Positions 26,596 to 30,649 of a stretch of 55,340 nt of DNA are shown piece by piece. The position numbers were made by a program, and so were the translations under genes. The notes below the pieces were generated by a model that worked only from the letters and a program-made list of their open reading frames with translations, made no database searches and was not told where the DNA came from. Position 1 is the stretch's first letter; each line of letters starts with the position of its first letter. This DNA comes from Candidatus Roizmanbacteria bacterium (GTDB taxonomy: Bacteria > Patescibacteriota > Microgenomatia > UBA1406 > GWC2-37-13), in assembly GCA_902200405.1 (NCBI GenBank), contig CABIKN020000001.1:1-55340 (forward strand), written 5' to 3'.

Positions 26596-27429
26596 TTACT
26601 CAAAATTAACAGTTGCCTCTTCATAAAGTCGCGATCGTTTTTTAAGCAAAATTTTATCCTGTTCTTCGTTTTGTTGTTTCAGCGATTTTTTATTATTAAA
26701 AACACTCAAAGAAAGATCGATGTTAAGGACTCTATTTTTAACTAAATGACGGGTAATTCCGGTTGGTAAAAGAACTTTGGATTTAGCTGATTCAATAATT
26801 TGTTGAGGTGTGAATGTGGGAAAAATAACAATGATATTATCATTAGGATATTGTTTAAAAAACTTCTTTACTGTGTCACTATTTAAAGTATAGGGAAGGG
26901 CTCCACGAGAAAGATTATTTTTATAAAAAGAAACCAAATAGTTCATCCGTTTAATTTTTTCAGAAAAACTTCCACCAGTTGAAATAAAAAAAACTTCTTT
27001 TTTATTAGTAACAACCGTACAAAGTCGGCCAAAATCTTTTTCCTTGATGTATCGATGTCCGACCTGATCCATTTTTCCTTGGCTAACAATGAGAGACTGA
27101 TCTTTTTTAATAAAATCTATAAACTTTTTTATGTCTCCATTAAAAATATGAAGCCAAGAAGATAACCCTATTTCTTCCTGATTATTATAGTCAACAACTT
27201 GTGCGGTTATAGTTTTTATTCCGAGCGTCTTAAAAGAATAGATCCTATTCATACCATCAAGTTGGAGATATTGTTTATTACCGAGTGAGGCAACAATGAT
27301 GGGATTACTAAGGGTTTGACTTTTTTTAAGGAAATTAACCAATTCCTTACTATTTGTAGGATCAAGTTCTTCGTGGGTTAAAATATCCTTAATTCGGATC
27401 ACTTCTAACTGAAAACGGTCGGTTTTCAT
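26596..27429 (-). CDS. SbnI/SerK-like free L-serine kinase (ParB/Srx fold)
   Basis: 277 residues resembling Staphylococcus SbnI and archaeal SerK, kinases that turn free L-serine into O-phospho-L-serine. Shared landmarks: THEELDP (the HE glutamate is the proposed catalytic base), LQLDGMNRIYSFKTLGIKTI (DGxxR nucleotide-binding loop), LSSWLHIFNGD (the tryptophan near the serine site) and LPTGITRHLVKNRVLNIDLSL near the C-terminus. It is not a plasmid ParB: the HTH domain is missing. It follows serA by 3 bases and an aminotransferase before that, so it probably joins serine to the phosphoserine pathway. ATP or ADP as donor cannot be told. Confidence 0.78.
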   Translation of the reverse strand: MKTDRFQLEVIRIKDILTHEELDPTNSKELVNFLKKSQTLSNPIIVASLGNKQYLQLDGMNRIYSFKTLGIKTITAQVVDYNNQEEIGLSSWLHIFNGDIKKFIDFIKKDQSLIVSQGKMDQVGHRYIKEKDFGRLCTVVTNKKEVFFISTGGSFSEKIKRMNYLVSFYKNNLSRGALPYTLNSDTVKKFFKQYPNDNIIVIFPTFTPQQIIESAKSKVLLPTGITRHLVKNRVLNIDLSLSVFNNKKSLKQQNEEQDKILLKKRSRLYEEATVNFE

Positions 27430-27432
27430 AAA

Positions 27433-28323
27433 TTATTTTTTATTCAAAATTTTAATAATTTCATCAATGACTATTTTTGTACCTTTTTTTAAAGCTTCAG
27501 TGGTTGAAGCGGCAATATGAGGAGTAAGAATGACGTTTGGCAATTTTCTCCAAGGAGAAACGGGTGGTAAAGGTTCCTGCCAAAAAACATCAAGGGCAGC
27601 TCCGGCAATTTTTTTCTCTTGAAGTAATTTAAAGAGAGCTTTTTCCTCCACTACCCCACCCCGTGAAGTATTAATAAAGAAGCTGGTCGGTTTCATCAGT
27701 AAAAGCAGATCGTTATTTATTAGATTTTTCGTGGTATTGTTCAAGGGCAAATGGACGGTAATAATATCACAGTGTTTAAAAATATATTTGAGAGAATTAG
27801 TTTTTTCGGTCCGGCTATAGTAATCAATTTTGGCTCCAAAAGCCTTAAATATTTTTTCTACCCTTTTTCCGATGTGGCCATAACCGATAACCCCAACTTT
27901 TTTGCCCTCGATTTCCTCTCCTTTAAGCTCTTTTTTAATCCAGAGACCTTCTCTCATCGATGAATATGCAGGTTGCAGTTTTCGTAACAAAGATAATATT
28001 AAGCCAAGTGTGAGTTCTGTAACAGCTTCAGAATTTGATTCAGGTGAATTTAATATGAAGATCTTTCGTTTTTTTGCCTCTAAAATATCAATATTATCAA
28101 GACCACTACCAACCCGGGCAATCACTTTTAGATTATGTCCACGGTCGATAACATCTGCCGTTACCTTAGTTCGACTACGAACAATTAAACCATCAAAGTT
28201 TCCAATTAGATTAATTAACTTTGAGGGAGTGATTTCAGGCTGATAGTTAAAAGAAAATTTTGGATTCTTAATCTGATCAATAACACTTTTATCGACCTTA
28301 TCAGCTATTAAGATATTAATCAT
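27433..28323 (-). CDS. serA: D-3-phosphoglycerate dehydrogenase (short form)
   Basis: 296 residues, D-2-hydroxyacid dehydrogenase fold. The NAD site is GVIGYGHIGKRV; catalytic Arg, Glu and His lie in INTSRGGVVEE, ALDVFWQEPLPP and LTPHIAAST; the substrate-side motif is RSRTKVT followed by ARVGSGLDNID. It would interconvert 3-phosphoglycerate and 3-phosphohydroxypyruvate. There is no C-terminal ACT domain, so no serine feedback site is visible. Its place between an aminotransferase and a serine kinase makes SerA far likelier than another hydroxyacid dehydrogenase. Confidence 0.85.
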   Translation of the reverse strand: MINILIADKVDKSVIDQIKNPKFSFNYQPEITPSKLINLIGNFDGLIVRSRTKVTADVIDRGHNLKVIARVGSGLDNIDILEAKKRKIFILNSPESNSEAVTELTLGLILSLLRKLQPAYSSMREGLWIKKELKGEEIEGKKVGVIGYGHIGKRVEKIFKAFGAKIDYYSRTEKTNSLKYIFKHCDIITVHLPLNNTTKNLINNDLLLLMKPTSFFINTSRGGVVEEKALFKLLQEKKIAGAALDVFWQEPLPPVSPWRKLPNVILTPHIAASTTEALKKGTKIVIDEIIKILNKK

Positions 28324-28326
28324 AAT

Positions 28327-29406
28327 TTAAGACATTTCCTTTAATGATTTTTTAAAAGAATCTACAACTTGATCAAGGTCTAATTTTGTTATGTAACCCA
28401 TATGGGCAACTCTGACAATTTTTCCTTTAAGCTCTCCCATACCACCTGCAATTACCAACTGATATTTGTCTTTTAAAATATTTCTCCACTCTTTTTCATC
28501 GACTCCAGTTGGTGGAAAAAGAGCAGTAATGGTTGGTGACGCTTCAGCATCTGCGACTAATAACTTTAGCCCAAGTTTTTTAATTTCACTTCGAAAGTAA
28601 TCTCGCAACTCAATATGTTTTTGAAAAACTTTTTCTTTTCCCTCTTTTTTCAATAGGTCTAAAGATGTTCGAAGACTATACAAAACCGATACAGCTGGTG
28701 TGGCCGGGGTCTGGTTTTTTTGACTAAATTTTTCATAGAGGGAAAGGTCAAAGTAATATCTTGGAAAGGTAGATCTTTGATGTTTTTCCCAAGCATATGG
28801 CGAAACGGCAACCATAGCAATTCCCGGAGAAGCCATCCATGCTTTTTGAGAAGCGGAAATCAAAACATCAATTCCTAAACTATCCATAGGAAGATCAGTT
28901 CCTCCTAAAGCACTTACAGAATCAACCAACAACAACGGTTTTGACGAGTGAGCCTTAACGATATGGGCGATTTCAAATAAATTATTTAAAACTCCAGTTG
29001 AAGTTTCATTGTGAGTAATAAAAACGCCTGCAATTTTATCCATTGTTGAGAGAGTTTTTTGAACATTTTTAACACCAGTTCCATCGACAAATTTAACCTG
29101 AGTGACTTTTAGACCAAAACGTCGGCCGATTTCTGCCCAACGATTACCAAACTCACCGCAGGTAAAAAAAACAACTTGGTCTCCTGGCGAGAAAAAATTA
29201 ACGATGGCTGTTTCGAGTCCGGCTGTGCCTGAAGCAGTTAATAGGTAAATAGGATTTTTTGTTTGATAAAAATATTGAAGACCCAATATTATTTCTTGAT
29301 GAATTTTTTCATAACTTTTTCCTCTGTGGCTGATCATTTGTTGAGAGAGTGAAGAGAGTACTTGTGGGAGCAATGGGGTTGGTCCTGGGATCCTCAAGTT
29401 TGCCAT
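28327..29406 (-). CDS. Class V aminotransferase (phosphoserine or serine/alanine-glyoxylate type)
   Basis: 359 residues, PLP enzyme of the alanine-glyoxylate/serine-pyruvate branch. It starts with IPGPTPLLPQVLSSLSQQMISHRG, has the cofactor loop SGTAGLETAIVNFF, the LVDSVSALGGTDLP aspartate and the PLP lysine in SASQKAWMASPG. Many organisms use this branch as phosphoserine aminotransferase. With serA and the serine kinase 3 bases apart from each other, that role is the best guess. I start at 29406: TTGATA, 17 bases and TATTAT lie just upstream, with 9 bases to the ATG. Confidence 0.82.
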   Translation of the reverse strand: MANLRIPGPTPLLPQVLSSLSQQMISHRGKSYEKIHQEIILGLQYFYQTKNPIYLLTASGTAGLETAIVNFFSPGDQVVFFTCGEFGNRWAEIGRRFGLKVTQVKFVDGTGVKNVQKTLSTMDKIAGVFITHNETSTGVLNNLFEIAHIVKAHSSKPLLLVDSVSALGGTDLPMDSLGIDVLISASQKAWMASPGIAMVAVSPYAWEKHQRSTFPRYYFDLSLYEKFSQKNQTPATPAVSVLYSLRTSLDLLKKEGKEKVFQKHIELRDYFRSEIKKLGLKLLVADAEASPTITALFPPTGVDEKEWRNILKDKYQLVIAGGMGELKGKIVRVAHMGYITKLDLDQVVDSFKKSLKEMS

Positions 29407-29415
29407 AGTGAAGAA

Positions 29416-29444
29416 ATAATACCGCAATTATATTAAAATATCAA
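29416..29444 (-). promoter_or_regulatory. Promoter of the serine operon
   Basis: TTGATA (29439-29444), exactly 17 bases, then TATTAT (29416-29421), all read on the minus strand. The start codon at 29406 follows 9 bases after the -10. A plus-strand TATATT (29429-29434) for the divergent ligase gene lies within the same 40-bp gap. Confidence 0.75.
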
Positions 29445-29446
29445 TA

Positions 29447-30649
29447 ATGATTAATAGGCTTTTGTTTTATTTATTTTTACTGCTTCTACCAACACAATTG
29501 GGCAAACATTTTTTTCTTGACTTTTCTTATCTTTCCGGAGTTCGGGTAGATTATCTTGCTCCAACAATTTATCTGACAGACATATTGGTTTTGCTATTGG
29601 CGATTTTTAATTTCAAAACCATATTTAAATTCTTCAAAAATAAAAAAGTTATCATTGGTTTATTTCTTTTATTAATTAATGTTTTGCTTTCACGTCTTCC
29701 AGTGGTTTCTTTTTATTGGTTTATAAAAATTATTGAGTTTTTGATAATTTTTTCCTTGGCTAAAAAAATCTTGATGACTTTAAAAGAAAAATATATTTTA
29801 GCCACCTTACTTATATCAGGTTTATTTCAACTATTTTTATCCTTAGTTCAATTAATCAATAAACATTCGGTTCAAGGATTATTTTATTATTTTGGTGAGA
29901 GATTATTATCTCTTTCAGCGCCGGGGGTCGCAAAAGCTTCGCTTGGCGGGATTGAATTTTTACGTCCATATGGAACTTTTTCCCACCCAAATTCACTATC
30001 AGGATTTTTTTTGCTTTTGTATTTTTTTGTACTAACATACAAAAAATTTAATCGTTATTTAGTATTAAAATATTTATTTTTATTGGTTTCAAGCCTTCTA
30101 ATCTTTATTTCTTTTTCAAAAATAGCCATTTTATCTTATTTGTTTTTAAACGGCATTTATTACATATTAACAATTAAATCTACTAAGGTTGTTTGCAAGC
30201 CTTGTATTATTGCGAGAATACTAATTATTATTGTGGTTTCTTTTATCTTTCTTCAGGCAACCACAGATCCTTTAACCATTAACAAAAGAATTGAATTAAT
30301 GAAAAATTCAACAGCGATTATTCTTCGCTATCCGATCCAGGGAGTTGGTCTAGGAAGCTATTTAATTGAACAAGCAAAATATTCTTCTAAATATTATTTA
30401 TTTTTTAATCAACCGGTTCATAATATTTTTCTTCTTTTTATAAGCGAAACGGGCTTAATAATCAGCGGATTAATCTTTTTATTTTCATTTAAAACAATTA
30501 GTCAGTTTATTAGAACAAATATTTATATATTTCTAACATTAGTTTTAACAGGATTATTTGATCACTATTGGTTAACTTTACAGCAAAATTTTCTTTTGAT
30601 GGGACTGGTTATGGGAGTGATTCTATCTCGGACTTTACCTGTTGATTAA
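29447..30649 (+). CDS. O-antigen ligase/polymerase family membrane protein
   Basis: 400 residues, about eleven hydrophobic helices. A large loop (about residues 140-180) and the later motif YPIQGVGLGSYLIEQAKYSS ending in PVHNIFLLFISETGLI match the Wzy/WaaL ligase family, which polymerises or attaches surface polysaccharide. It suggests a glycan-coated envelope, in line with the UbiA and GtrB-type genes in the window. Its 3' end overlaps the convergent DUF5667 gene by 41 bases. Confidence 0.82.
   Translation: MINRLLFYLFLLLLPTQLGKHFFLDFSYLSGVRVDYLAPTIYLTDILVLLLAIFNFKTIFKFFKNKKVIIGLFLLLINVLLSRLPVVSFYWFIKIIEFLIIFSLAKKILMTLKEKYILATLLISGLFQLFLSLVQLINKHSVQGLFYYFGERLLSLSAPGVAKASLGGIEFLRPYGTFSHPNSLSGFFLLLYFFVLTYKKFNRYLVLKYLFLLVSSLLIFISFSKIAILSYLFLNGIYYILTIKSTKVVCKPCIIARILIIIVVSFIFLQATTDPLTINKRIELMKNSTAIILRYPIQGVGLGSYLIEQAKYSSKYYLFFNQPVHNIFLLFISETGLIISGLIFLFSFKTISQFIRTNIYIFLTLVLTGLFDHYWLTLQQNFLLMGLVMGVILSRTLPVD

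Follow-up and report, generated by a model that had tools for sequence, protein, structure and literature searches.

A conserved three-gene operon of Roizmanbacteria and Gottesmanbacteria that may carry free serine to 3-phosphoglycerate

Introduction

In Thermococcus, a route from serine to 3-phosphoglycerate (3PG) through the kinase SerK, an aminotransferase and SerA has been proposed with genetic support, the aminotransferase TK1548 being assumed for the matching step (Makino 2016, PMC5120207). The same study reported that some Desulfurococcales have serK in the neighbourhood of serA and of genes for aminotransferases, and in bacteria clear homologues of SerK were not found. In our study, an operon of an aminotransferase gene (AT), a short serA and a gene for a SerK/SbnI-like protein was analysed, which lies at positions 26596-29406 of contig CABIKN020000001.1 (assembly GCA_902200405.1), in a stretch of 55,340 nucleotides from a Candidatus Roizmanbacteria bacterium that is called the window here. 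A sequence-only reading had proposed that these genes link free serine to 3PG through a serine kinase. We judge it somewhat more probable than its negation that the locus is a serine-assimilation operon, in which free serine would be converted to O-phosphoserine, phosphohydroxypyruvate and finally 3PG.

The pathway concept and a partial clustering of its genes are already known from archaea, and the combination is thus less unusual than the sequence-only reading had supposed; as a bacterial operon, however, it appears to be new. No paper on an AT-SerA-SerK operon in bacteria of the candidate phyla radiation (CPR) was found in an incomplete open-access library, and against that library the conservation in two CPR lineages, the direction-suggesting contrast between cofactor loops and the pairing of mini-SerK genes with trpB2 also appear to be new.

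Results

The third protein of the operon (277 aa; 26596-27429, minus strand) found its best NCBIfam matches in archaeal SerK (NF053625, 62.5 bits, E 3e-17) and SbnI (NF033589, 55.4 bits, E 6e-15). All 21 kinase homologues matched both models, and a profile of these homologues recovered the structures of SbnI (E 1e-28) and SerK (E 1e-10 to 1e-12). In a gap-free alignment E20 (codon 27370..27372, minus) and Asp58 of the DGMNR motif (D58, codon 27256..27258, minus) fall on SbnI positions 20 and 58, and E20 corresponds to the catalytic E30 of SerK, the residue changed in the solved E30A and E30Q mutant crystal structures. E20, D58, G59, R62, W92 and H94 are invariant in the 21 homologues, and T226 and H228 are nearly so. 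The HEEL, DGMNR, SSW and TGITRH motifs, on which the kinase call had first been based, are all present and mostly conserved, the TRH of TGITRH (26746..26754, minus) being common to SerK, SbnI (as TRF) and the mini-SerKs described below.

The AlphaFold2 model of this protein (pLDDT 89) was matched by Foldseek to SbnI (E 2e-17, TM 0.69) and to SerK (E 1e-14 to 1e-15, TM 0.63-0.64, about 245 columns aligned), the TM values being normalised by query length. The SbnI and SerK structures cover 240-280 alignment columns of the model, whereas those of Noc, ParB and sulfiredoxin match its N-terminal 80-90 residues or so only. A ParB identity was rejected, since the structural match to ParB and Noc is confined to this part and Pfam ParB_N reached 16.8 bits, under its cut-off of 26.3; the profile search placed the third gene with SbnI and SerK, as had been predicted. 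Assignment to the SerK/SbnI-type kinases is well supported by family profiles and the modelled fold, and free serine would be the probable substrate.

SerA (27433-28323, minus) is a short phosphoglycerate dehydrogenase (PGDH) without an ACT domain (2-Hacid_dh_C, E 4e-58; TIGR01327, E 6e-88). Its TIGR01327 score of 296 bits is under the equivalog cut-off of 454 and covers only positions 1-302 of the 525 in the model, and its best Protein Data Bank (PDB) match is the PGDH 1wwk (E 1e-69). The catalytic R221/E250/H269 as well as R49 and S50 are invariant in 12 homologues. The Arg-Ser motif, which binds the substrate phosphate in the SERA subfamily (PMC6303947), is kept as VRSRTK (28165..28182, minus), is likewise invariant in the 12 homologues and is predicted to bind phosphate here, and a phosphorylated substrate is therefore likely.

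The loop between strand bB and helix aD of SerA, which the sequence-only reading had missed, gives a clue to the direction of the pathway. According to a survey of the 2HADH dehydrogenases (PMC6303947), nearly all native dehydrogenases use NAD+, a conserved aspartate in this loop goes with NAD(H) in the SERA subfamily, and [ST]R[ST]X[RK] marks NADP(H) enzymes of the GHRA group. The window SerA has SRTEK (27802..27816, minus), which fits the NADP(H) fingerprint and stands where the NAD aspartate would be, whereas 1wwk, 2ekl and human PHGDH show YD[PI] at this position. Among 17 distinct SerAs from SerK operons, 14 carry [ST][RK], 9 the full fingerprint and 1 an acidic loop; in SerAs fused to SerB the loop is acidic in 20/20 against 1/17 (Fisher p 1e-9, relatedness ignored). 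The operon enzyme is predicted from these residues to be an NADPH-dependent phosphohydroxypyruvate reductase, for which NADP+-linked oxidation may be possible too. The contrast with the acidic loop of the SerB-fused, biosynthetic SerAs favours reduction, so that the serine-to-3PG direction, also put forward by the sequence-only reading, is better supported than the reverse.

Both orders of SerA-SerB fusion occur within the one class. Proteins of about 600 aa with SerA first were seen in Gottesmanbacteria (L075:8122-9936, L080:2645-4435 and L103-L107), divergent from the SerK operon in two genomes, and the opposite order, of about 630-640 aa with the NAD-type Asp, in relatives of Roizmanbacteria and other families (L101, L102 and L108-L118). 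A C-terminal ACT domain was present in the one SerB-SerA fusion checked, as against none in the operon SerA.

The first gene (28327-29406, minus) encodes a class V aminotransferase of the AGXT-like kind (Pfam Aminotran_5, E 4.5e-27), the best PDB match of which is 2dr1, a hypothetical serine aminotransferase (E 1e-61). Its pyridoxal phosphate (PLP) lysine, K188 in the invariant SQKAW motif, is unchanged in 12 homologues. The enzyme is predicted to be a phosphoserine:2-oxoacid aminotransferase, with a putative specificity for phosphoserine.

The window contig belongs to a metagenome-assembled genome (MAG) of Patescibacteria (G000; 1.18 Mb, 93% complete), the nearest named relatives of which are Candidatus Roizmanbacteria MAGs. 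The order AT-SerA-SerK is kept in eight Roizmanbacteria (G000, G002, G006, G008, G010, G014, G015 and G019) and also in the distant Gottesmanbacteria. The kinase was found in 19/374 genomes of the class (E below about 1e-28, truncated or interrupted copies counted), together with the operon-type AT in 11 (p 5e-12) and with the operon-type SerA clade in 13 (p 8e-18), p values that come from phylogenetically non-independent genomes, most of them of one family. Purifying selection acts on each of the three genes, with dN/dS of 0.055-0.134 overall, 0.055-0.079 for the kinase against four relatives, 0.055-0.073 for SerA against three and 0.09-0.13 for AT against four, values that are approximate because dS is high. 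The genes can also part: G162 and G193 have AT-SerA pairs without the kinase, and G012 retains the kinase with AT and SerA gone. In G012 an 835-codon open frame (L019:7479-9983), TIGR00375-like and with an apparent intein insertion, fills the place of AT and SerA and adjoins SerK. An in-frame TAG in the SerK homologue of G025 (L023:7065-7838) and a frame break in the SerA of G008 (L015) reflect decay or assembly error.

Three intact open reading frames (ORFs) on the minus strand, with 3 bases between each, make up the locus as the sequence-only reading had described it, and its calls of a class V aminotransferase, a short SerA and an SbnI/SerK-like protein all stood. Its single strong promoter did not: the site TTGATA-17-TATTAT (29416..29444, minus), 10 bp upstream of the AT ATG, is a consensus match only (10/12), and a scan of the region gave 13 sites where 11.0 +/- 2.8 are expected by chance. 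If the site were used, the mRNA could be nearly leaderless. The ORF list places a TTG start of AT upstream of the ATG, at 29427. Only 40 bases (29407-29446) separate the AT start from a divergent O-antigen ligase-like gene at 29447; this gene and SmpB are the neighbours of the operon.

No SerB match was found on the window contig or in the transcription unit; the earlier reading had seen none in the window. In the rest of the genome, a SerB-like protein lies on contig C30 of G000 (88 bits to TIGR00338, cut-off 144; 114 bits to human PSPH), and the serine dehydratase family SDH_alpha is absent from G000. Above-cut-off TIGR00338 matches were found in none of the genomes searched, and G015 (97% complete) gave no strong SerB-like match. 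Across the class, SerB-like phosphatases occur in 11/19 SerK genomes and in 43/355 others, and in G058 and G151 a SerA-SerB fusion lies directly beside the SerK operon. Because this association is positive, the kinase is argued not to replace SerB, and its standing in for the phosphatase was rejected as a general rule. Family searches found SDH_alpha in 0/22 SerK genomes, enolase in 21/22 and serine hydroxymethyltransferase (SHMT) in 21/22; an IlvA-like threonine dehydratase was found in three Roizmanbacteria genomes.

A second link missed by the earlier reading concerns TrpB2, enzymes which depend on O-phospho-L-serine according to Busch 2014 as cited in PMC11917138. TrpB2 was found in 8/8 Roizmanbacteria operon genomes, in G014 as a contig-end fragment, against 4/12 others of the genus (p 0.005). 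Short relatives of the kinase, termed mini-SerKs (about 130 aa), keep HE, DGHHR and TRH/TKH and miss a middle region of about 100 residues. Their genes overlap or adjoin trpB2 in G004, G005 and G637 and stand one gene apart from it in G000 (near-TrpB2 loci L121:4586-4978 on contig C34 of G000, L122:5185-5574, L123:6017-6415 and L126:4809-5213), and they are candidate suppliers of O-phosphoserine for tryptophan synthesis. Both the pairing and the association of TrpB2 with the operon support O-phosphoserine as a product of SerK-like proteins. The predicted mini-SerK structure had a pLDDT of 40 and was not used. The mini-SerK of G637 sits within a run of shikimate-pathway genes. Matches to PF00291 of about 455 aa were tried as threonine synthase, which was rejected when they proved to be TrpB2. 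An amino-acid racemase closest to the cysteate racemase CuyB is encoded at L121:5035-5736.

Discussion

On the reading that we prefer, the SerK/SbnI-like kinase would phosphorylate free L-serine to O-phosphoserine with either ATP (as SbnI) or ADP (as archaeal SerK) as donor, the class V aminotransferase would transaminate the phosphoserine with a 2-oxo acid as acceptor, and SerA with its NADP(H)-type loop would reduce the resulting 3-phosphohydroxypyruvate to 3PG, which may then enter lower glycolysis or gluconeogenesis. In Roizmanbacteria TrpB2 may also draw off O-phosphoserine as a side branch. Thermodynamics favour this direction both for phosphoryl transfer from nucleotide to serine and for the reduction of phosphohydroxypyruvate. 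Which substrates and cofactors would be used, which way the enzymes would run and what the operon would do for the cell are read from the sequences, and several findings weigh against this reading. The kinase is far under the equivalog cut-offs of SerK (62.5 vs 380 bits) and SbnI (55.4 vs 350 bits), and AT falls outside the SerC family (TIGR01364, 39 vs 443.6 bits). The strict NADP(H) fingerprint is confined to 9 of the 17 operon SerAs; the SerA of G093 carries Asp, and the motif is also seen in G193, whose AT-SerA pair comes with no SerK that could be found. TrpB2 gives O-phosphoserine another use, and the genomes compared are MAGs.

That other use is the strongest competing account, although we hold it unlikely: SerK from serine, and possibly SerA with AT from 3PG, would supply O-phosphoserine to TrpB2 and to a PLP enzyme resembling cystathionine beta-synthase (CBS) and cysteate synthase. 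The link of TrpB2 to the Roizmanbacteria operons, its reported dependence on O-phosphoserine and the neighbouring mini-SerKs argue for it, as does the gene for such an enzyme in G000, which is followed by a cystathionine gamma-synthase/lyase-like gene (L093:1483-3581, contig C32). The TrpB2 association, however, comes from 20 related genomes of uneven completeness, and an NADP(H)-type SerA would be left unexplained. Supply of TrpB2 is a real rival or second role but not a general one, because among the operon genomes of Gottesmanbacteria that were checked seven hold only remote proteins of the TrpB1 type (29-34% identical to TrpB2), one, G058, has TrpB2, and two (G116 and G133) show no TrpB candidate among their PLP matches. 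Cysteine synthesis as a general role was rejected, CBS/CysK-type genes being absent from G010, G042, G084, G256 and several less complete genomes; in G010 (97% complete) there was no such match beyond TrpB2. Serine biosynthesis is improbable in comparison. Here phosphoserine would be made from 3PG by SerA and AT, and serine would then be freed by a phosphatase or by the kinase running backward, with recovery of a phosphoanhydride in the latter case. SerA and class V aminotransferases are ordinary partners in serine synthesis, and the absence of above-cut-off TIGR00338 matches and of a strong SerB-like match in G015 agrees with it. The backward kinase of the sequence-only reading nevertheless sits badly with the positive association of SerB-like phosphatases with SerK, the PSPH-like protein of G000 itself and the fusions beside two operons. 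The NADP(H) loop and the missing ACT domain speak against oxidation by SerA, and it is energetically uphill to form a nucleotide phosphoanhydride at the expense of phosphoserine.

A route without phosphorylated intermediates, in which SerA would reduce hydroxypyruvate, AT would act as a serine:glyoxylate/pyruvate aminotransferase and the third gene would encode a glycerate kinase or regulator, seems more improbable still. The best matches of AT are AGXT-type serine-pyruvate/glyoxylate aminotransferases, and GHRA hydroxypyruvate reductases typically show the NADP(H) fingerprint, but SerA is closest to PGDHs and keeps the SERA-specific Arg-Ser, and the kinase finds its nearest relatives in two free-serine kinases of solved structure, its catalytic residues being conserved. 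Least credible of all is that the third protein is no kinase and regulates the SerA-AT pair as a DNA-binding ParB-like or SbnI-like protein; SbnI is reported to bind DNA too (PMC7139808) and the weak ParB_N match would fit, but the ParB/Noc resemblance spans the N-terminal part only, as against the long SbnI/SerK match, and the kinase active-site residues are invariant.

Serine assimilation may belong to a broader picture, to which we give slightly less than even credence. It would comprise an NADPH-driven serine-to-3PG pathway in a single bacterial operon with SerA re-tooled as a phosphohydroxypyruvate reductase, a separate biosynthetic SerA-SerB fusion with an acidic, NAD-type loop added in some Gottesmanbacteria, and a wider O-phosphoserine economy of CPR bacteria including mini-SerK and TrpB2. 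A conserved bacterial operon of this kind would take the phosphorylation of free serine beyond siderophore clusters, and ultra-small, metabolically reduced cells that lack the classical serine dehydratase would gain a way to feed serine into their central carbon metabolism. Further, since the cofactor loops of SerAs linked to SerB and to SerK are opposite in kind, three small proteins would suffice to test directly which way the pathway runs.

Comparison with known systems

The nearest described system is that of Thermococcus kodakarensis (SerK TK0378, TK1548 and SerA TK1966), with which the window operon shares the three activities (here predicted), the proposed route, the kinase fold and the catalytic Glu. 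The archaeal genes are unlinked in Thermococcales, whereas those of the window form a tight bacterial operon and the kinase scores far below the archaeal SerK cut-off. TK0378 takes ADP only, whereas the donor of the window kinase may be ATP or ADP; the archaeal PGDH structures 1wwk and 2ekl have Asp in the loop that is of the NADP(H) type in the window SerA. Staphylococcus SbnI is the best match by fold and in the homologue-profile search, with position-identical E20 and D58 and aligned C-terminal GxTR and R-Y-E segments. SbnI, however, is encoded among the staphyloferrin B genes and supplies SbnA, whereas the window kinase is partnered with AT and SerA and has no siderophore context.

The phosphorylated serine pathway of SerA, SerC and SerB runs through the same intermediates. 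In comparison, the window operon is without SerB, its AT is AGXT-like and its SerA has neither ACT domain nor NAD aspartate, SerB-like functions being placed in other genes or fusions. The NADPH-dependent hydroxypyruvate reductases of the GHRA group have the [ST]R[ST]X[RK] fingerprint in common with the window SerA, which nevertheless groups with the PGDHs and has kept the Arg-Ser phosphate motif.

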